Shown: piece after piece, positions 7,898 through 64,000 of the stretch
Layout of the letters: the number at the start of each line of letters is the position of its first letter
Position numbering within the stretch: the first letter of the stretch is position 1
Source: Acidobacteriota bacterium
GTDB taxonomy: Bacteria; Acidobacteriota; UBA4820; DSQY01
Direction: 5' to 3'
Assembly (NCBI GenBank): GCA_021787565.1
Contig: JAJYLT010000007.1
Span: forward strand, 1-64,000
DNA length: 64,000 nt
The notes under the pieces: generated by a model
Seen by the model: the letters and a program-made list of their open reading frames with translations, nothing else
Database searches by the model: none
Told to the model about the DNA's origin: nothing
Translations under genes and position numbers: made by a program

Positions 7898-7922
7898 TAT
7901 GGGGGGGTTATTGGCACTCATA

Positions 7923-8304
7923 CCTGTCCAAAGTAGGCCGCCTTGCCGGCTCCGAACCACGGCTGGGCCTTGGCCGCGCCGGTGGCGCGGCGCTGGGGGC
8001 CTGGTCCGGACGCGTCCACGCGGGCGTGGCCGCGCTCCGGCCGCAGGCCCTCCGCCGCCCTTCGGGCGCCAGCCCCAGCCTTTCCTGGTGTACACCGTCC
8101 CCCCCACCCTCCATGGGTGCGCCGGCGGCGACGGACCTCCTGCTTCGTCAGCTTTCGGCGTCCGCATCCTCAGCGTACAGGGAGTACGCTTGCGGTGCGG
8201 CCGCCTCAGCTTCCTTGCATGAGGCCCATCGGCGCCGGAACGCGCCTTCCTCCGCTTCGCTCCGGAAGGCAACCCACACATATGCGAGTTCAAAATGTTT
8301 GGGA
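7923..8304. mobile_element. 380-bp hairpin-rich element, copy A
   Basis: It matches 22475-22857 over about 380 bp with scattered differences. It begins CCTGTCCAAAGTAGG and contains several short palindromes also present in the other copy, for example CCGCGCC/GGCGCGG, CCACGC/GCGTGG and CGTAC/GTACG around variable loops. Its right end is degraded (TTTGGGAT where copy B has TTGGACAG). No ORF of convincing character is conserved between the copies. I read it as a non-autonomous MITE-like element or a mobile structured RNA. Confidence 0.6.
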
Positions 8305-21116: not shown

Positions 21117-21151
21117 GAAGTGAGAAGTGAGAAGTGAGAAGTGAGAAGTGA
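21117..21151. repeat. heptamer tandem repeat GAAGTGA x5
   Basis: Five exact GAAGTGA units, 29 bases before a REP-like palindrome. Confidence 0.9.
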
Positions 21152-21180
21152 GGAGCAAGAACCCCCTCCCCATGACGGCC

Positions 21181-22419: not shown

Positions 22420-22471
22420 GCGAGGTGGAGGGTGAAGGGGAAGAGGGGGGCTTTTCCCTATACTCGTAATC

Positions 22472-22863
22472 ACCCCTGTCCAAAATAGGCCGCTTTACCG
22501 GCTCCGAACCACGGCTGGGTCTCGGCCGCGCCTTTGGCGCGGCGCTGGGGGCCTGGTCCGGGCGCGACCACGCGAGCGTGGCCGCGCTCCGTCCGCAGTC
22601 CCTCAGCCGCGCTTCGGGCACCAGCCCCAGCCTTGTCTGGGGTGGACCCTCCCCCCACCCTCCATGGGTGCGCCGGCGGCGACGGACCTCCTGCTTCGTC
22701 AGCCTTCGGCGTCCGCATCCTCAGCGTACGGGGAGTACGCTTGCGGTGCTGCCGCCTCGTCTTTCTCGCATGAGGCCCATCGGCGCCGGGACGCGCCTTC
22801 CTCCGCTTCGCTCCGGAAGGCAAAACGCACAAATGCGAGCTGAAATTGTCTTGGACAGCCATG
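22472..22863. mobile_element. 380-bp hairpin-rich element, copy B, with TIR and direct repeats
   Basis: The more complete copy. The left end holds CTGTCCAA and the right end its complement TTGGACAG, an 8-bp terminal inverted repeat. The 10-bp string ACTCGTAATC flanks it on both sides (22462-22471 and 22864-22873), as expected for a target duplication. Internal palindromes match those of copy A while their loops differ. It encodes no recognisable protein, so a transposase would have to act in trans. Confidence 0.65.
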
Positions 22864-38281: not shown

Positions 38282-38666
38282 GGCCTTCTCCTCGCCTCTT
38301 GCGGGACCGCGTGCGCACCTTCCTTAGTATAATGAACGTCGGTCCACGCTGGAAACCCGTCTGCAGGCTGGTGGGCGGCGTGAACAATGGCCCGAACTAC
38401 GCGCTGCTGGGACGCCGGATCACCCTCGGCGCGTCCAAGCTTCCCTCCGAAAAGTCGTAGGCGCGGCCGTGCCTAGTGTTGTGTCCCCGTCCTGTGTTTA
38501 CAAAGGCCTTTTCCCGGGACACAACACTTCCCAAGGGGCTCCGCCCCTAGGGCGCCCGCCTGCGGCGGGCTGTTACCCCGAAAGAGCGGGGAGGCTTCCT
38601 CCCCGCACCCCTCCGTGTGCTGTCTGTCACCTGCTTCCATTGTGAATCTATCACTGAGACAGCACA
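38282..38666. other. intergenic region with a hairpin cluster
   Basis: Spacer between the anti-sigma gene's 3' end and the larA-like start, both minus strand. A minus-strand TATACT at 38331-38326 may serve larA, with only a weak -35. From 38475 onward there is a run of strong hairpins: a 13-bp inverted repeat (38475-38528), AGGGGC/GCCCCT, GCCCGCC/GGCGGGC and the 87-bp repeat. A 42-codon open frame at 38333-38460 shows no sign of being a gene. Confidence 0.55.
38475..38528. repeat. 13-bp perfect inverted repeat
   Basis: AGTGTTGTGTCCC (38475-38487) and GGGACACAACACT (38516-38528) enclose 28 nt. Such termini suit a small insertion element or a strong transcript-end hairpin. Confidence 0.8.
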
Positions 38667-38670
38667 CTAG
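38584..38670. repeat. 87-bp inverted-repeat element, copy 1
   Basis: It matches 44968-45054 over 87 bp. A first hairpin GCGGGGAG/CTCCCCGC is followed by a second long stem GTGTGCTGTCT/AGACAGCACAC. The right end CACTAG supplies the minus-strand stop codon (CTA at 38667-38669) of the anti-sigma gene. Confidence 0.8.
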
Positions 38671-39623
38671 CCGTTGGCCCGCCGGAGGCTGTACCGGCCG
38701 GGCGGCGGGTGCAGGGGGGCCAGCACGCTCTCGATGCCGCCCTGGGGGTCCGCCAGTGCTTGGCCGCGGGCATCCGTGATCTGGATCCCCCCATTCCGAT
38801 GGACGACCACCCACCAGCGTGTGTCGCTGGGGGGAGCGGCCGTCGCCGGGAGGCTCACGACGATGGGGCTCCCGTTGTCCTCCGATTGGAGAGAGCAGAG
38901 GACATAGAAGATGCCCTGGGCGGCGTCCTCCTCCTGCTCCAGTTGGGTGGGATTGTGGGGGGCGGCGGAACCCGTGGGGGCCGATTGGGCCAGGGGACCC
39001 TCGGCGGCCGGGGGCGCGCTCCGCCTGGACTCCCCGGTGGCGGGGAAGGGGCCGCCTGCGAGGGGAACGGGAGCCGCCAGCCCCGGCCCGGGCGGTTCCG
39101 CCGGGCGGGCCGGTGGTGCCGCCTCCCGCGGCCGGCCCTCGTTCATCCCCTGGGCGGAAGGCTGGCCCAAGTCCGCCTTGCCGGCGGCCCGATCCATGGG
39201 TGCGGCTGCTTCCCGAGGCGCCTCGGCCTTGGCTTCGGTCTGGGGCGCGGGACGGGCGACGGGCGGCGCGGGGAGACGTGCCATCTTACGGAAGGGCTGG
39301 AGTTCATGGAGAACGGCCCATCCGCCGAGCGCCGCGAAGAGGACCACCGCCGCGATGGGGCCCGCCCACGCGGCGCGGAACCAGCGGGAGCGTCCCGCCC
39401 GCCGCGGCCCGCTCTCCGGCTCGGCCCGCACGCGGGCCATGATGAGGCCGTGCAGATCGGCGGGAGCCTCCCCGTCGCTCATCGCCCGGAACTCCCCGCG
39501 CACCGAGAGGAACTCGTCGAAGGCCCTCCGGCACGCCTGGCAGGAGGCCAGGTGGGCCCCGGCGTCGCCCGACTGGACGGGGCCGTCCTCATCCATCACC
39601 CGAAGGAATTCTTCGCACCTCAT
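38667..39623 (-). CDS. anti-sigma factor with zinc-finger-type N-terminus
   Basis: A 318-aa single-pass membrane protein. Its N-terminal cytoplasmic anti-sigma domain has the HxxxCxxC motif (HLASCQACRRAF) after MRCEEFLRVMDEDG; a hydrophobic helix lies about residues 88-108; then a Pro/Ala-rich periplasmic linker and a C-terminal domain with FYVLCSLQSEDNG and RWWVVVHRNGGIQI, of unknown fold. ATG 39623 overlaps the ECF sigma stop (ATGA), the usual sigma/anti-sigma arrangement. Its own stop is formed by the end of an 87-bp repeat, so the last residues may have been altered. Confidence 0.85.
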   Translation of the reverse strand: MRCEEFLRVMDEDGPVQSGDAGAHLASCQACRRAFDEFLSVRGEFRAMSDGEAPADLHGLIMARVRAEPESGPRRAGRSRWFRAAWAGPIAAVVLFAALGGWAVLHELQPFRKMARLPAPPVARPAPQTEAKAEAPREAAAPMDRAAGKADLGQPSAQGMNEGRPREAAPPARPAEPPGPGLAAPVPLAGGPFPATGESRRSAPPAAEGPLAQSAPTGSAAPHNPTQLEQEEDAAQGIFYVLCSLQSEDNGSPIVVSLPATAAPPSDTRWWVVVHRNGGIQITDARGQALADPQGGIESVLAPLHPPPGRYSLRRANG

Positions 39624-40267
39624 GGCCAGACGCCCTCGAGGGCCTCCCTCAGGGCCTGCCGGGCCCTGCAAAGCCTGGACTTCACCGTTCCATGGGCACA
39701 GCCGAGAGCCTGCCCCAGTTCCTCGTACTCCATGCCCTGGATCTCCCGAAGGATGAGGATCTCGCGGTGCTCGGGCGAGACCTGGCCGAGGGCGCGTTCC
39801 AGGGCCTGCCGCAGCTCGCCGCCAAGGGCCTCGGCCTCTGGGTCCGGACGCCGGTCCGGAGGATCGACCGCGTTCATCTCGCCCTCGTCATCCGCCTTGA
39901 CCAGGGCCATCTCCCTTCGCCGCATCCTCTCCCGCCCGCTGACGATCCTGCTTCGACAAAGGTTGAGAAGGATTCCCACGGCCCAGGTCCGGAAGGCCGC
40001 ATCGCCCCGAAAATCCTTCAGTGATCGAAAGATTCGGAGAAAGGTCTCCTGCACCGCCTCCATGGCGTCTTCCCGCCTCCCCAGCATGCGCAGGGCGATC
40101 TGGTAAAGCTGGCGCTCGTGGCGCAGCACCAGCGCTTCGAAGGCGGACTCGTCCCCCTCGCGAAATCGGAGCACATCTCGCCCGTCAGCATCGCGCACCG
40201 TCACGGGCATGGATTGAGCGCGCTCGGTCCTGTCCATGGGCCCAAGATATACCGCTTCGGGCACCAT
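39620..40267 (-). CDS. ECF-type RNA polymerase sigma factor
   Basis: A 215-aa sigma70-family factor. Region 2 spans FREGDESAFEALVLRHERQL to VQETFLRIFRSLKDFRGDAA; region 4 spans VSPEHREILILREIQGMEYE to GCAHGTVKSRLCRARQALRE, including the helix-turn-helix. ATG 40267 has GGAGGG seven bases upstream; ATG 40237 would give a more usual 205 aa. It is held inactive, presumably, by the following anti-sigma factor. The signal and regulon are unknown. Confidence 0.9.
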   Translation of the reverse strand: MVPEAVYLGPMDRTERAQSMPVTVRDADGRDVLRFREGDESAFEALVLRHERQLYQIALRMLGRREDAMEAVQETFLRIFRSLKDFRGDAAFRTWAVGILLNLCRSRIVSGRERMRRREMALVKADDEGEMNAVDPPDRRPDPEAEALGGELRQALERALGQVSPEHREILILREIQGMEYEELGQALGCAHGTVKSRLCRARQALREALEGVWP

Positions 40268-40326
40268 CTCAACGCCCTCCGCCCCATGAGACCCTGGAGG
40301 GGCGAAAAGGTTCCGGGAGAGTGGGA

Positions 40327-41700
40327 TCAGCAGCCCGCTTCCTGGGTGGCGCGCTTGCAGCCCGCGGGGTAGGCGCCGGTGAAGCAGGCGTAGCAGAAGT
40401 GGCTGGCATTCCGCACGCACGAGCGGAGGCCCTCCAGGCTCAGGTAGCGGAGGGAGTTGGCGCCCAGCTGGTCCGCCACTTCGGGGGCGGCCCGGTGGGC
40501 GGCCACCAGGCGCTCCCGGTCCGGGGTGTCGATCCCGTAGTAGCAGGAGTAGCGGATGGGCGGTGAGCCGATGCGGAGGTGGACCTCCCGCGCGCCGTTC
40601 TCACGGAGCATCCGTACGAGCTTGCGGATGGTGGTGCCCCGCACGATGGAGTCGTCCACGAGGACCACGCTCTTCCCCCGGAAGAAGCCCGGCAGCGGGT
40701 TGAACTTCAGGCGCACGGCGTCATCGCGCATGACCTGGTCCGGGGCGATGAAGGAGCGCCCCACGTAATGGTTCCGGACAAGTCCGAAGACGAGCGGAAT
40801 CCCCCTGGCATTCGCGTAGGAGAGGCCGATGTAGTTGGCCGAGTCGGGGATCGGCACCACCGCGTCTGCCGCCACGTCGTCTCCGTCCGCCAAGGCCTCG
40901 CCGATGCGACGGCGGACATCGAACACGGACTCTCCGAAGACTTGGCTGTCGGGCCTGGCGAAGTAAATGTGCTCGAAGATGCAGTGGTGACGGGCGCCGC
41001 CTTCGACGCCGCGGAGACGACTCAGACCGTCGGGTCCCCAGCGGAGGATGCCGCCCGGCTCAACGGTCCCCGTGAACCGAGCGCGAATAATGTCCAGGGC
41101 CACCGACTCGCTGGCCACCACCACCCCGCCCTCCTTCTCGCCGGTGCACATGGGGCGAAATCCGTGCGGATCGCGGAAGGCGTAGAGTTCGGTGGGGGTG
41201 AGCAACACCGTGGAGTAGGCCCCCGATCCGCGCTCCATCCACCGGCGGATGGCCGCCTCCAGGCCCAACCCGTCGTCGAAGGCCCACACCCCGATGGTCT
41301 TGGCGATCACCTCGGCGTCGTTGGTGCCCTCCAGAACGTAGCCGCGGGCCTCGATTTCGCGCCCCAGCTCGGGGAGGTTGGTGATGTCGCCGTTGCTGGC
41401 GAGAGCGAAAAGCGGCCGGCCCTCCTTCACGAAGAGGTGGGGCTGCGAGTTCTCGATGCGGGCGGCCCCCTGGGTGGGGTACCGGACGTGGCCCACGGCG
41501 GAGCTCCCCTGAAGGGTGTGCAGAACTTCGGGTTTCAGCACGTCCCGGACCAGCCCCATGCCCCGAAATCGATGGAGCGTCTCCCCGTCGGAGGTGGCCA
41601 GCCCGCACGAATCCTGCCCCCGGTGCTGCTGGGCGAAGAGGCCCTCGCAGGCTGGAATAGCGGCGTCTTGAAGTCCGTAGAGCCCCATGATCCCGCACAT
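40327..41700 (-). CDS. purF: amidophosphoribosyltransferase PurF
   Basis: A 457-aa enzyme of the first committed step of purine synthesis, making phosphoribosylamine from PRPP and glutamine. The N-terminal nucleophile Cys follows the start Met (MCGIMGLYG), with QQHRGQDSCGLA; the phosphoribosyltransferase loop is VVLVDDSIVRGTTIRKLVR. Cys residues in HHCIFEHIYFA, RYSCYYGIDTP and SHFCYACFTGAYP match the iron-sulphur ligands of the Bacillus-type enzyme. Normal length. It is upstream of the ECF sigma gene but probably not functionally linked. Confidence 0.97.
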   Translation of the reverse strand: MCGIMGLYGLQDAAIPACEGLFAQQHRGQDSCGLATSDGETLHRFRGMGLVRDVLKPEVLHTLQGSSAVGHVRYPTQGAARIENSQPHLFVKEGRPLFALASNGDITNLPELGREIEARGYVLEGTNDAEVIAKTIGVWAFDDGLGLEAAIRRWMERGSGAYSTVLLTPTELYAFRDPHGFRPMCTGEKEGGVVVASESVALDIIRARFTGTVEPGGILRWGPDGLSRLRGVEGGARHHCIFEHIYFARPDSQVFGESVFDVRRRIGEALADGDDVAADAVVPIPDSANYIGLSYANARGIPLVFGLVRNHYVGRSFIAPDQVMRDDAVRLKFNPLPGFFRGKSVVLVDDSIVRGTTIRKLVRMLRENGAREVHLRIGSPPIRYSCYYGIDTPDRERLVAAHRAAPEVADQLGANSLRYLSLEGLRSCVRNASHFCYACFTGAYPAGCKRATQEAGC

Positions 41701-41772
41701 GAGCGATGGAGTATAGCACGCGAGATTCGGATTTCGGAATTCGGAGAGCGGACAATTCGGAGAGCGGAAAAT

Positions 41773-41802
41773 GATTCACCACCAAGACGCCAAGGCACAA
41801 AG
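41773..41802. repeat. dispersed motif GATTCACCACCAAGACGCC
   Basis: GATTCACCACCAAGACGCC then AAGGCACAAAG; near copies at 7867-7897 and, inverted, 22874-22892. Confidence 0.65.
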
Positions 41803-41906
41803 AACTGGGGTTTTGGGATGGCGAATGGCGAATTGAAAAAAGCGAGCCACAGGAACACCGAGGCAGGCAGAAACCTGGAACCAGAGCCGGGGCTTCGGCT
41901 CTTCTT

Positions 41907-42000
41907 GTGGGAGGCGCCTCCCGGCGGCGACCGGTCGCGATAAGGCAATCGCTCCCAGAACCTCGCGCCGTGCGTCGTGGGAGCCGTCGCCCGACGGCGA
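41907..42000. repeat. three REP-like palindromes (+, -, +)
   Basis: Plus unit 41907-41930 (GTGGGAGGCGCC...GGCGGCGA), minus unit 41935-41957 (minus strand TGGGAGCGATTGCC...TCGCGA) and plus unit 41977-42000 (GTGGGAGCCGTCGCC...GACGGCGA). The last is nearly identical to the unit at 204. Confidence 0.7.
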
Positions 42001-42007
42001 CGCTCCC

Positions 42008-42055
42008 TCATCTATCATCTATCATCTATCATCCCTCTATCATCTATCATCCCTC
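42008..42055. repeat. heptamer tandem repeat CATCTAT with variants
   Basis: About six 7-nt units of CATCTAT/CATCCCT type, starting 8 bases after the last REP unit and ending just before the lpdA stop region. Confidence 0.8.
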
Positions 42056-42075
42056 CGGCGCCTAGCCAGCGTCCC

Positions 42076-43494
42076 TCACCGGTTCAGCACGTGGATGGCC
42101 TCGCCGAGGGCGGCTTCCACCGATTCCAGGAGCCCCTCGCTCATGGTGGGGTGGGGATGGATGGTCTGGCTCAGGTCGTCCAGGAAGGCCCCCATTTCGA
42201 TGGCCAGGGCCGCCTCGCCGATCATCTCGCTGGCGTCCGCTCCCACGATGTGCACGCCCAGGATCCGCTTGGTCTCCGCGTCCGCCACGGTCTTCACGAA
42301 GCCCTCCGTGGCGTTGAGGGTCATGGCGCGGCCCGAGGCGTGGAAGGGGAAGGTGCCCGTGACGACCTTGTAGCCCTGGGCCTTGGCCTCCATCTCGGAG
42401 AGGCCGGCCCAGGCGATTTCGGGGTCGGTGTAGATGACCGCGGGGATCACCACGTTGTCGAAGGCGGAGGCCTCGCCGGCGATCACCTCGGCGGCCACCT
42501 TGGCCTCCCGGTAGGCCTTGTGGGCCAGCAGCGGCCCGCCCACCACGTCGCCGATGGCGTAGATGCCGGGCACGTTGGTCTCCATGCGATGATTGACCCG
42601 GATGAAGCCCTTGGGCTCCTGCTGAACACCGGCCTCCTTGAGCCCGAGCCCCTCCACGTTGGGAACCCGGCCCACCGAGACGAGGATCTTGTCCGCCTCC
42701 AGCAGGGTCTCGTTGTCGTCGCGGCCCTGGATGCGCACCTTGTTGGGGCGTCCCTTCTTGTAGCCCATCGCGCGCTGGCCAAGGTAGAGCTCGATGCCCA
42801 GGTTCTTGAGCCTTCTCGTGATGACTTCGCGCAGCTCGGGATCGTGCTGGGTGAGGAGCTCGGGGAAGAACTCCACGATGGCCACCTCCGAGCCCAGCCG
42901 CCGGTAGACCGACCCGAGCTCGAGGCCGATGTAGCCACCGCCGATCACCACGAGCCTCTTCGGCACTTCCCTGAGGGTGAGTGCCTCCTTGGAGCCGATC
43001 ACCCTCTCCCCGTCCACGGGGAAGCCGGGGAGCGGAAAGGGGATGGAGCCCGTGGCGATGACCGCCTGCTCGAACTCCACGAGCTGGGGTCCCGATTCGG
43101 TAGCCACCTCCAGCTTGCGGTCGCTGAGGAAGCGGGCGCGCCCCTGCAGGATGTCGGCGCCGTTCTTGGTGGAGAGGAACCGGACCCCGTCGGTGAGCTT
43201 CTTGACGATCTGGTCCTTCCAGTCCACGAGCTTGCCGAGGTCCACGCCCACGACGTTGACCGTCACGCCCATCCTGGAGGCGAACTGGGTCTGCTCCACG
43301 AAATCCGCGGCGTGGATCATGGCCTTGCTGGGGATGCACCCCTCGTTGAGGCAGATGCCGCCCAGGCTCTTCTCGGCCTCGATGAGGAGGACGTCCTTCT
43401 TGAGCTGGGCGAGGCGGATGGCGGCCAGATAGCCGCCCGGTCCGGAGCCGATGACGGCCACTTGGCAGCCCTTGCTAAAGGATCCCACGACCAT
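42076..43494 (-). CDS. lpdA: dihydrolipoamide dehydrogenase (E3)
   Basis: A 472-aa FAD enzyme that reoxidises the lipoyl groups of E2 with NAD. FAD-binding VAVIGSGPGGYLAAIRLAQL; redox disulphide GGICLNEGCIPSKAM; NAD-binding VVIGGGYIGLELGSVYRRLG; C-terminal dimer motif with the active-site His in TIHPHPTMSEGLLES. Normal length. It follows the E2 gene by about 126 nt on the same strand, completing the pyruvate dehydrogenase set. Confidence 0.98.
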   Translation of the reverse strand: MVVGSFSKGCQVAVIGSGPGGYLAAIRLAQLKKDVLLIEAEKSLGGICLNEGCIPSKAMIHAADFVEQTQFASRMGVTVNVVGVDLGKLVDWKDQIVKKLTDGVRFLSTKNGADILQGRARFLSDRKLEVATESGPQLVEFEQAVIATGSIPFPLPGFPVDGERVIGSKEALTLREVPKRLVVIGGGYIGLELGSVYRRLGSEVAIVEFFPELLTQHDPELREVITRRLKNLGIELYLGQRAMGYKKGRPNKVRIQGRDDNETLLEADKILVSVGRVPNVEGLGLKEAGVQQEPKGFIRVNHRMETNVPGIYAIGDVVGGPLLAHKAYREAKVAAEVIAGEASAFDNVVIPAVIYTDPEIAWAGLSEMEAKAQGYKVVTGTFPFHASGRAMTLNATEGFVKTVADAETKRILGVHIVGADASEMIGEAALAIEMGAFLDDLSQTIHPHPTMSEGLLESVEAALGEAIHVLNR

Positions 43495-43620
43495 GACTTT
43501 CTCCTCTGAAAAGATGCTTCGGCGAGGCCCGCCGGGAGATCATCGGACCCAGGAGGGGCCATCCCGGAGGGATCCCGCGTTTCCCCCGTGGTCCATGTCA
43601 CCCGATCTGGTTCGGTCGCC

Positions 43621-44886
43621 TCACAGACTGACCATGAGGAGCCCCGGGTTCTCGAGCAGGCGCACCAGGTCGGTGGCCGCCCTCGCCCCCTCGGCCCCGT
43701 CGATGATGCGGTGGTCGAAGCTGATGGCGATGTTCATGAGCTTGCGCGGTACGACCGCGCCGCCCACCACGGCCGGCCTCTCCTTGATGGCGAAGAAGGC
43801 CGCGATGGCCAGCTCGGGCTGGTGAATGATGGGCGTGGCGATGAGGCCCCCGATGGGCCCAATGTTGGTGATGGTGAAGGAGCCGCCCTTGAGCTCGTCG
43901 AGGGAGAGGCGGCGCTCCCGCGCCCGCTGGGCCACGTCGGCGATCTCGCGGGCCAGCTCGAGCATGTCCTTCCGATCGGCGTTCTTGAGCACCGGGACGA
44001 TGAGGCCGTCGGGCGTATCCACCGCCATGCCGATGTGGTAGTAGCGCTTGAGGACGATCTCCCCCCTGGCCTCGTCGTAGCTGGCGTTGAGCAGCGGGTG
44101 TCTCTCGAGCATGGCCACCACCGCCTTGACGAAGATGGGCATGAGGGAGAACTTGGTCCCGCCGTTCGCCTCCACGGCGCCCTTCACCTTGCGGTAGAGC
44201 TCCACCAGGTCGGTGACGTCGGCCTCGTCCACGTGGGTCACGTGGGCGGAGGTGCGCTTGCTCGCCGCCATGGCCTCCGCGATCACCTTGCGCAGGTGGG
44301 AGATGGGTTCTCGGGTCACGGGGCCCACCTCGGTGATCTCGACCGGCGCCGAGGGGGCCGCGGGAGCGGAGCTCGGCGGGGCCGGCGCGGCTTGGAAGCC
44401 GGCGGTCGTGGAGCCCTTCAGGGCGCGGTCCACGTCCTCGTCGGTGATGCGGCCGCCCTTGCCGGTGGGAGCGGCCGAGGCGAGGTCCACGCCCAGCTTG
44501 CGCGCGTAGGCCCGCGTGTGGGGAGTGGCGAGGATTTTCCCCGAGTGCGATGGGGGAAGAGCGGCGGACCGAGGCACGACCGCGGGCGCGGCTGGAAGGG
44601 CGGGAGCCGCCGGAGCCGCGGCGGCGGATGCCCTGGCGCCGTTCTCGCCCGGGGCACCGAACACGGCGATCACGTCTCCCACGTGGATCGTCTCCCCGGC
44701 GGCGAACCGCAGGGCCAGAACGCCGCCGGCCTTGGGAGCGGGCAGGTCCACCACGGCCTTGTCGGTCTCCACCTTGACGAAGGGCTGGTCCACGGCTACC
44801 GCGTCGCCCTCCTTGACCAGCCACTGCACGATCTTGCCTTCGTGGATCCCCTCCCCGACGTCGGGGAATCTGAATTCAAGCGACAT
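43621..44886 (-). CDS. pdhC: dihydrolipoamide acyltransferase (E2) of pyruvate dehydrogenase
   Basis: A 421-aa core subunit. One lipoyl domain (about 1-80) with lipoyl-lysine 43 in VETDKAVVDLP; an Ala/Pro linker; the subunit-binding domain ILATPHTRAYARKLGVDLAS; a second linker; and the trimeric catalytic domain with IAISFDHRIIDGAEGARA, containing the DHRxxDG active site. The single lipoyl domain is typical of Gram-positive-type and branched-chain complexes. An 87-bp repeat element separates it from pdhB, so the locus may be split into two transcripts. Confidence 0.95.
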   Translation of the reverse strand: MSLEFRFPDVGEGIHEGKIVQWLVKEGDAVAVDQPFVKVETDKAVVDLPAPKAGGVLALRFAAGETIHVGDVIAVFGAPGENGARASAAAAPAAPALPAAPAVVPRSAALPPSHSGKILATPHTRAYARKLGVDLASAAPTGKGGRITDEDVDRALKGSTTAGFQAAPAPPSSAPAAPSAPVEITEVGPVTREPISHLRKVIAEAMAASKRTSAHVTHVDEADVTDLVELYRKVKGAVEANGGTKFSLMPIFVKAVVAMLERHPLLNASYDEARGEIVLKRYYHIGMAVDTPDGLIVPVLKNADRKDMLELAREIADVAQRARERRLSLDELKGGSFTITNIGPIGGLIATPIIHQPELAIAAFFAIKERPAVVGGAVVPRKLMNIAISFDHRIIDGAEGARAATDLVRLLENPGLLMVSL

Positions 44887-44967
44887 CCTCGGCCTCTCCT
44901 CATGGATTGCTCGGTACCTACCTTAGCACGCTCGGCGCGCAGCGGTGTTCGCGGGGCATCGGGCCGA

Positions 44968-45054
44968 GAGCGGGGAGGCTTCCTCCCCGCACCCCTCCGT
45001 GTGCTGTCCGTCGCCTGCTTCCATGGTGAACCTATCACTGGGACAGCGCACTAG
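44968..45054. repeat. 87-bp inverted-repeat element, copy 2
   Basis: Same layout as 38584-38670. In the second stem GTGTGCTGTCC pairs with GGACAGCGCAC, a changed C-G pair where copy 1 has T-A, so the pairing is kept. Its right end again supplies the minus-strand stop codon (45051-45053), here of pdhB. Confidence 0.8.
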
Positions 45055-46091
45055 AATTCGAGCGCGCGCTTGGCGGCGGCCACGACCCGCTCGCGGTTGG
45101 GGAGGTAGTGGTTCTCCAGCAGGGCGTGGGGGAAGACGACGTCGTACCCGGCGACCCGCTCCACGGGGGCCTTCAGGTGAACCAACGCGCGTTCGTTGAT
45201 GAGGGCCACGATCTCCGCCCCGAAGCCGCCCGTCCGCGGCGCCTCGTGGACGACCACGGCCCGGCCCGTCTTGGTCACCGATTCGATGATGGTCCCCGCG
45301 TCCACGGGGCTGAGGGTCCGAAGGTCCACCACCTCGGCCGAGATCCCGTCGCGGGCCAAGGCGTCGTGGGCCTCCAGGGCCTGCCGCACCATGGAGCCGT
45401 AGGCGATGATCGTTAGATCCGTGCCCGTTTTGACGACCTTGGCCTTGCCGATGGGGACGGTGTACGGCTCGGAGGGGACCTCCTCCCGGAAGGCGCGGTA
45501 GATGCGCTTGGGTTCCAGGAAGACGACGGGGTCCTCGTCTCGGATGGCCGAGGCCAGGAGCCCCTTGGCGTCGTACGGAGTGGAGGGGACCACCACCTTG
45601 AGGCCGGGGGTGTTCACTAGGAGCGCCTCATAGGACTCGGAGTGGTGCTCCGGCGGGTGGATGCCCCCGCCGTAGGGCATGCGCACCACCATGGGCAGGT
45701 GGGTGCGGCCCCTGGAGCGGTTCCGCATCCGGGCCGCGTGGGCGAAGAGCTGGTTCAGGGCGGGGTAGAGGAAGCCCATGAACTGGATCTCCGCCACCGG
45801 GCGGAAGCCCGCCGCGGCCAGGCCGATGGAGAAGCCCACGATGCCGCTCTCGGCCAGCGGCGTGTCCATCACCCGCTCGCTACCGAAGGCATCGAGCAGC
45901 CCCTCGGTGACCCGGAACACGCCCCCGTCCCTGCCCACGTCCTCGCCCAGGACCAGGACCGTCTCGTCCCGTTCCATCTCCGCCTTGAGGGCCTGGTTGA
46001 TCGCCTGCACCATGGTCAGGCGCTCGGCTGGGCTCTCCACGGCCCTGAGGCTCCGTTCCTGCTGGCTCGCCGCCGCCTGTTGCCGGGTCAT
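45051..46091 (-). CDS. pdhB: pyruvate dehydrogenase E1 beta subunit
   Basis: A 346-aa subunit of the thiamine-dependent E1 component. Typical blocks: ETVLVLGEDVGRDGGVFRVT, DTPLAESGIVGFSIGLAAAG, VAEIQFMGFLYPALNQL, MPYGGGIHPPEHHSES and AVVVHEAPRTGGFGAEI. Length about 20 aa over the common 325 because of an N-terminal extension. It overlaps the E1alpha stop by 4 nt. Its stop codon is formed by the end of an 87-bp repeat, so the natural C-terminus may once have been different. Confidence 0.95.
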   Translation of the reverse strand: MTRQQAAASQQERSLRAVESPAERLTMVQAINQALKAEMERDETVLVLGEDVGRDGGVFRVTEGLLDAFGSERVMDTPLAESGIVGFSIGLAAAGFRPVAEIQFMGFLYPALNQLFAHAARMRNRSRGRTHLPMVVRMPYGGGIHPPEHHSESYEALLVNTPGLKVVVPSTPYDAKGLLASAIRDEDPVVFLEPKRIYRAFREEVPSEPYTVPIGKAKVVKTGTDLTIIAYGSMVRQALEAHDALARDGISAEVVDLRTLSPVDAGTIIESVTKTGRAVVVHEAPRTGGFGAEIVALINERALVHLKAPVERVAGYDVVFPHALLENHYLPNRERVVAAAKRALEF

Positions 46092-63654: not shown

Positions 63655-63720
63655 GGGCTCCTCCCCGAGCATTGTAGAGGTGCGGGGGTGGGCTGTCCAG
63701 GAGGAAGGAGCGTGAACTGG

Positions 63721-63896
63721 GGGACTAGGGGACTAGGGGACTAGGGGACTAGGGGACTAGGAGACTAGGGGACTAGGGGACTAGGAGACTAGGAGACTAG
63801 GGGACTAGGAGACTAGGTGACTAGGGGACTAGGGGACTAGGGGACTAGGGGACTAGGAGACTAGGAGACTAGGAGACTAGGGGACTAGGAGACTAG
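63721..63896. repeat. octamer tandem array, 22 units of GGGACTAG type
   Basis: 22 consecutive 8-nt units: 13 GGGACTAG, 8 GAGACTAG and 1 GTGACTAG. Only the second base varies. Each unit contains CTAG, a tetranucleotide that is rare in many bacterial genomes. It lies upstream of asnB. From 63897 to 64000 I see only a TTGACT at 63976, possibly a -35 whose -10 is outside the window. Confidence 0.95.
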
Positions 63897-64000
63897 GGAA
63901 AGAAGGCCGTGCAGGCGTCTCCTGGGTGAGGCGAGCAAGGTGTGAATCGAGCTGAGGCCCGCCTCCCCAGACGGGTTGACTTTGGGCTTTTCGCCAGCGC

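Follow-up and report, generated by a model that had tools for sequence, protein, structure and literature searches.

A probable IS630-type miniature transposon that settles at CTAG, often on amber stop codons, in an Acidobacteriota genome

Introduction

Within a 64,000-nucleotide stretch of an Acidobacteriota genome (the window; contig JAJYLT010000007.1, positions 1 to 64,000), two similar repeats each end exactly on the stop codon of a gene, and the two genes are unrelated. How does a repeat come to end so precisely on the stops of genes that have nothing in common? The first-pass annotation read the repeat as an 87-bp unit that may insert at stop codons or bring its own stop, that keeps its stems by compensatory changes and that may serve as a 3'-end stabiliser or terminator. 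Here the repeat is followed through G000, the genome that contains the window (3.47 Mb, 77 contigs), its sister species G001, which together form genus g1, and genus g2 (G002, G005 and G007).

Results

Architecture of the element

A repeat search of the window recovers the pair at 38583-38670 and 44967-45054, 88 nt each. The two are highly similar, at an identity of 93% rather than the near-identity first reported, and the matching stretch is real but forms only one end of an element of about 198 bp, so that 87 bp is not the unit. CTAG closes both copies as described, and its minus-strand TAG is the stop of an anti-sigma-like ORF and of pdhB.

Copy 1 (L044), on the minus strand at 38473..38670, is full length: it matches the whole 198-bp consensus at 96%, including a CTAG at each end, and has an empty counterpart in G001. 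The element proper, 192 bp at 38476-38667, lies between two TA dinucleotides. The left-end CTAG (38667..38670, minus strand) holds the TAG stop of the anti-sigma-like ORF, and the right-end CTAG (38473..38476, minus strand) holds the TA of the target-site duplication at 38474-38475. Read along the minus strand, the order is CTAG, a terminal stem-loop, three GC-rich core hairpins, a second terminal stem-loop and CTAG. The left terminal stem-loop (38615..38667, stem GTGTGCTGTC / GACAGCACAC) and the first core hairpin (38586..38606, GCGGGGAGG / CCTCCCCGC) are predicted by folding and correspond to covariation helices 1 and 2. Helices 3 and 4 are the core hairpins at 38554..38570 (GCCCGCC / GGCGGGC) and at 38530..38552 (around GGGGC / GCCCC), and helix 5 is the right terminal stem-loop at 38476..38527 (stem GTGTTGTGTCCC / GGGACACAACAC). 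The tips in the genus g1 version read GTGTGCTGTC / GTGTTGTGTC. Terminal inverted repeats are present but imperfect, positions 1-34 matching the opposite end at 79% over 34 nt in blastn. The element is thus gene-less, short (198 bp with its flanking CTAGs) and multi-copy.

Copy 2 (L014), at 44967..45054 on the minus strand, is cut after consensus position 88. It keeps the left part, 1-88 of 198, comprising the left terminal stem-loop and the first core hairpin, and is 97% identical to the consensus; the TAG of its left-end CTAG (45051..45054, minus strand) is the pdhB stop. The host genes lie on the same strand: the anti-sigma-like ORF at 38667..39671, with a Pfam match to DUF2275 only, and pdhB at 45051..46091, encoding E1-beta, with Transket_pyr and Transketolase_C.

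Copies and relatives

A search with the 198-nt consensus finds 21 separate copies in G000, reduced from 27 matches by the removal of three right tips of counted copies and three weak matches. The 21 matches in G001 represent 19 copies: L114 and L113 belong to one copy, and L115, a weak match, was dropped. From G002, 4 of 13 matches were removed (L124, L126-L128), and from G005, 3 of 11 (two second pieces and L139); G007, searched with the g1 query only, holds at least four copies among the matches listed. Across 100 relatives, eight match at E<=0.001. Six of these belong to the same family (nine genomes, the window's own included), and two distant short matches are taken as chance. The exact core pattern occurs in six stretches of the named genome collection, all titled Acidobacteria MAGs, and has no match in viral contigs; a plasmid search for the element gives no match.

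The core is common to both genera (89-91% in the best g2 copies) and is more conserved between them than the ends, the tips differing between genera. G001 also carries one g2-like copy, L108. Intact copies in G000 have CTAG at the right end in 11 of 11 cases and at the left end in 7 of 11.

Three further G000 copies (L051, L052, L054) are lengthened by a second repeat family lodged inside the loop of the right hairpin, in L051 in the opposite orientation. This family is about 400-490 bp long, with many hairpins and tips like ATGGCTGTCCAAAA, and pieces of it are scattered widely through G000, including L005/L065, L066 and window positions 7909-8304 and 22461-22855. At the start of contig C76 of G000 (L075, 58-129), the end of a group II intron adjoins the right hairpin of an element copy; the match to RF00029 (37.2 bits, E 3e-6) falls just below the gathering score of 40. 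The window also contains short repeats with a 7-bp period (GAAGTGA type), direct and inverted, at 123-154, 448-486 and 21117-21160.

Empty sites and target duplication

The joined flanks of all 21 G000 copies were sought in G001 (four by the right flank only), and the flanks of 11 of the 19 G001 copies were sought in G000. Precise empty sites with a single CTAG are found for five of the 21 (L042, L043, L044, L046, L052), and in the reverse direction for three of the 11 (L084 and L102 at CTAG, L092 at GTAG). At the site of copy 1, the anti-sigma-like gene of G001 ends ...GCCAACGGCTAG with no insertion. L105, L099 and L088 also show CTAG at the empty site, with a caveat of length or flank. Because the orthologous empty sites carry a single CTAG, and once GTAG, the stop codons predate insertion, and the suggestion that the element brings its own stop does not hold.

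Two insertions are common to both species (L048/L077 and L050/L113). The remaining 14 of the 21 G000 junctions are imprecise or unplaced and yield neither an insertion common to the two species nor an empty site aligned precisely at CTAG. Among these, L040 aligns across the junction in G001 with CCAA at the site. A TGA stop occupies the empty site of L041 and that of L014 (copy 2), the site of L057 reads GTAG followed by six bases, and at L020 CTAG is accompanied by extra DNA. These five sites speak neither for nor against the model.

Seven of the eight precise empty sites are CTAG and alone cannot separate a duplication of TA from one of CTAG; the separation comes from L092. Its target reads GTAG in both species and its occupied site reads GTAG-element-CTAG. 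Duplication of four bases would leave GTAG on either side, whereas duplication of TA by an element with G first and C last gives the observed arrangement. The combination of GTAG and CTAG ends recurs in L048/L077. In addition, among 36 two-ended copies, base 4 of the left flank is G in 36 of 36 and base 1 of the right flank is C in 36 of 36, while the other flanking positions vary. The L092 pair and the invariant inner G and C thus indicate that TA, not four base pairs, is duplicated. A TA duplication inside a preferred CTAG fits the IS630 (Tc1/mariner) signature. Tenzen and Ohtsubo reportedly observed in 1991 that IS630 prefers the TA in CTAG. TA target duplication is described for IS630 of Shigella sonnei and for ISY100 in the available text of PMC2170065.

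A related IS630 transposon

The DDE_3 transposase domain (PF13358) is present in one of the nine family genomes, G007, where it occurs three times. None is found in G000 at E<=0.001; the element may therefore lack a partner in that genome and be stranded, or the assembly may not include the partner. One of the three G007 loci, L224, is a transposon of 1194 bp whose inverted ends, GTGTCCTGTAACAG / ATGTCCTATAACAG, are imperfect and stand in a C-TA...TA-G context. The two halves of its transposase match the NCBIfam IS630 transposase NF033545 with 118.5 and 110.9 bits, and the transposase carries an in-frame stop. The outermost 25 nt at the left tip of L224, counting CTAG, agree exactly with the left end of the g2 element (25/25, E 2.5e-9), and the right ends agree at 18/30 only. 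The g1 ends are not matched directly, resembling the G007 transposon weakly (16/30 left, 12/30 right); g1 is linked to IS630 by way of the core that it has in common with the g2 element. By tip similarity, no autonomous partner is found in G002, G005, G003 (L081) or the viral contigs, where four matches of a 16-mer are taken as chance. As a separate observation, the IS630 transposon at L224 1333-2531 has a transposase frame that ends on the terminal CAC-TAG, and the tip doubles as the transposon's own stop codon.

Enrichment at stop codons

Genes were accepted as real with at least 80 open codons, GC3 of at least 0.75 and GC3>GC1>GC2. This criterion agrees with Pfam in nine of ten scanned ORFs, L042 having no Pfam match; pdhB is supported separately. 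In G000, 12 of the 21 copies abut a stop, 8 of them at the left end and 4 at the right. The background comprises 172 CTAGs in 464 kb of G000, with 70 CTAGs in tandem arrays left out: 26 are stops, 99 are non-coding and 47 are coding. Excluding the 47 coding sites, stops account for 12/21 insertions against 26/125 tolerable background CTAGs (one-sided Fisher p=0.001), an enrichment that would be overstated to the extent that the non-coding class includes missed short genes; with the coding sites included, the comparison is 12/21 against 26/172. A smaller background of 162 kb (6 stop and 38 non-coding CTAGs) gave a stronger enrichment and is superseded by the 464 kb. At window positions 63716-63898, a tandem array of an 8-bp unit (GGGGACTA) offers about 22 CTAGs and contains no inserted element.

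Elsewhere, copies abut a stop in 6/19 cases in G001, 3/9 in G002, 3/8 in G005 and 0/4 of the matches listed in G007, none of them significant singly against the G000 background. A genome-wide count thus gives a divided answer: in G000 most copies lie at stops, and in the five genomes pooled most lie away from them (24/61 at a stop, the G007 copies being those among the matches listed). In the five genomes, 16 stops abut the left end and 8 the right, which shows no clear orientation bias. Insertion at stop codons, as first proposed, is correct in that the element enters CTAG sites, and amber stops make up many of these. The enrichment can arise from survival, since CTAG is restored when the element enters a stop and the encoded protein stays intact.

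In all four right-stop copies of G000 (L051, L052, L054 and L058; contigs C62, C49, C67 and C76), the right hairpin contains or adjoins an insertion, and none is seen in the other 17 copies, an arrangement expected 1 time in 5985 by chance when counted post hoc. The right-stop copy of G001, L099, is intact.

Hairpins and compensatory changes

On the minus strand, both window copies fold better than shuffled sequences (z -5.6 for copy 1 and -3.1 for copy 2). Covariation was assessed in 30 copies of nearly full length drawn from five genomes, with truncated and size-shifted ones excluded. Over the five helices, 94.2% of cells pair, against 41-53% in slid controls. Changes on both sides occur in 17 of 48 pairs, a value reached by 0 of 500 shuffles; most of these double changes separate the two genera and thus reflect few events. 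Compensatory change between genera is therefore real in all five helices, though mostly in pairs other than the one originally quoted. At that second-stem pair (columns 14/48), the T-A versus C-G difference between the window copies is confirmed, but the pair is not kept, being unpaired in 17 of the 30 full-length copies.

The hairpins are kept by compensatory changes, so the structure matters or is templated. Template-switch correction of palindromes could also produce compensatory changes without selection, and the conservation may stem either from selection on RNA or DNA structure or from such correction. The conserved tip hairpins, and a core kept better than the tips, are the best hints of a role. 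Rfam covariance models over 38300-45200, spanning both copies, give no match.

The proposed terminator role finds no support in these sites. A scan of 38300-38800 returns one match, at 38458-38475 on the plus strand, located at the element's edge and near shuffle level, and copy 1 lacks the GC-rich hairpin with a T run that is the hallmark of an intrinsic terminator. Copy 2 sits between pdhB and the next same-strand pdh gene (E2, named by eye from sequence), and a strong terminator there would be expected to hurt the pdh genes.

Discussion

Origin of the element

The element is very probably a miniature transposon (MITE) of the IS630 (Tc1/mariner-like) type that does not move on its own, and in the tests run here it has the features that define one. 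What is directly shown comprises the copies and their boundaries, the empty sites, an inner G and C that never vary, and an IS630 transposon in a relative whose tip matches. A transposase supplied in trans would cut out the 192-bp element (GTGT...ACAC) and join it to a TA, with a preference for the one within CTAG, and the TA would be duplicated. With G as its first base and C as its last, the element would restore CTAG at both ends on entering C-TA-G, and where that CTAG holds an amber stop, the gene would keep its stop and the protein would be unchanged. We infer the transposase step, and likewise that survival at stop sites reflects the harmlessness of insertion there. Hairpins at both tips are not a known feature of IS630 MITEs, and this counts against the reading, as do the lack of a DDE_3 match in G000, the in-frame stop of the G007 transposase, the weak resemblance of the g1 ends to that transposon, the 18/30 agreement at the g2 right end and the 14 G000 junctions that yield no precise CTAG empty site and no insertion common to both species.

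Two other origins have been weighed, and both are very unlikely. The element could be REPIN-like, a pair of palindromes in inverted orientation that carry a tetranucleotide tag and travel in single-stranded form by means of a Y1/HUH (RAYT) transposase. Both ends are indeed stem-loops directly after a tetranucleotide, the stems covary, and G000 has seven Y1_Tnp matches; the available text of PMC3733652 adds that GTAG REPs often give a TAG stop to flanking ORFs. However, none of the seven Y1 loci has the element within its 500-nt flanks, the nearest case being the divergent copy L056, about 1.3 kb past the Y1 gene L068. The Y1 genes at L073 and L074 adjoin palindromes of other repeat families, the tag is CTAG at 7 of 11 intact left ends and 11 of 11 right ends rather than the GTAG/CGTC of REPs, and the IS630 tip identity and the TA duplication point elsewhere. 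L073 and L074 (contigs C24 and C48), with their flanking palindromes, are apparently REP/RAYT loci in their own right, and repeats resembling the second of these palindrome kinds (GTGGGAGC...) also occur in the window at 204-238 and 41977-42011. IS481 and IS5 have CTAG targets, and IS481 combines CTAG with TGT ends. A MITE of such a DDE family (IS481- or IS5-like), duplicating the four bases CTAG, would account for CTAG at both ends of most copies, and a four-nucleotide duplication of CTAG/YTAA is given for MITEPsy1 in the text available of PMC3189936. Such a duplication is at odds with GTAG on the left and CTAG on the right in L092 and L048/L077, and with an inner G and C that never vary. An IS481 origin was considered and rejected: G000 has only two rve matches, an orphan 170-aa ORF and one match under the cut-off.

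A different question is whether the element is retained for a job at gene 3' ends, as a terminator or mRNA 3'-end stabiliser; this competes with neutrality only and not with a MITE origin. The stop enrichment in G000, the strong folding with compensatory changes in five helices and the better conservation of the core speak for such a job. The lack of a terminator-like site in copy 1, the position of copy 2 between same-strand pdh genes, the absence of a clear orientation bias and an enrichment that is not significant in the other four genomes singly speak against it, and on balance we regard it as unlikely. Less probable still is a mobile 3'-UTR module, in which CTAG targeting would settle the element on amber stops, its hairpins would act on the 3' ends of host messages, and selection would keep position and structures across genera.

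An IS630-type MITE offers a simple way for a repeat to end precisely on a stop codon: the target holds the amber stop, and the ends rebuild it. Where a genome has few CTAGs inside its genes, stop codons become a safe landing place. The empty and filled orthologous sites in sister species form a natural data set on transcript 3'-end effects. Should the hairpins be functional, the element would be a mobile 3'-UTR; if not, it would be a good case for the maintenance of palindromes by template switching.

Comparison with known systems

In the open-access literature searched, as far as its available text goes, neither the element nor a link between CTAG stops and IS630 is described. Repeats located at stop codons have precedent, since REP ends that supply TAG stops are in print (PMC3733652, available text). 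GTAG-tagged REPs and REPINs resemble the element in their tagged palindromes and in ends that often supply a TAG stop (PMC3733652, same text), and differ from it in that the element has no linked Y1 transposase, duplicates TA and carries an IS630-like tip. IS630 of Shigella sonnei and ISY100 share the TA target duplication (PMC2170065, available text), but are autonomous and encode a transposase, whereas the element has no gene. MITEPsy1 of Pseudomonas syringae is likewise a MITE with a CTAG target; in the portion available of PMC3189936 it is put down to the IS5-like ISPsy2, and it differs in its length of 100 nt, its four-base duplication and its tips. The element works in the manner of RUP and its partner IS630-Spn1. 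RUP is also a short non-coding repeat with TA ends, and it shares its tips with an IS630 transposon that is its presumed mover in trans, a likeness that the element shows too (PMC2229807, PMC3049150, available text). According to the same sources, RUP is 107 bp long, AT-rich and present in about 108-110 copies in one species. The element described here, in contrast, is about 192 bp long, GC-rich and present in about 20 copies; both of its tips form hairpins, and at stops it stands in a CTAG context.
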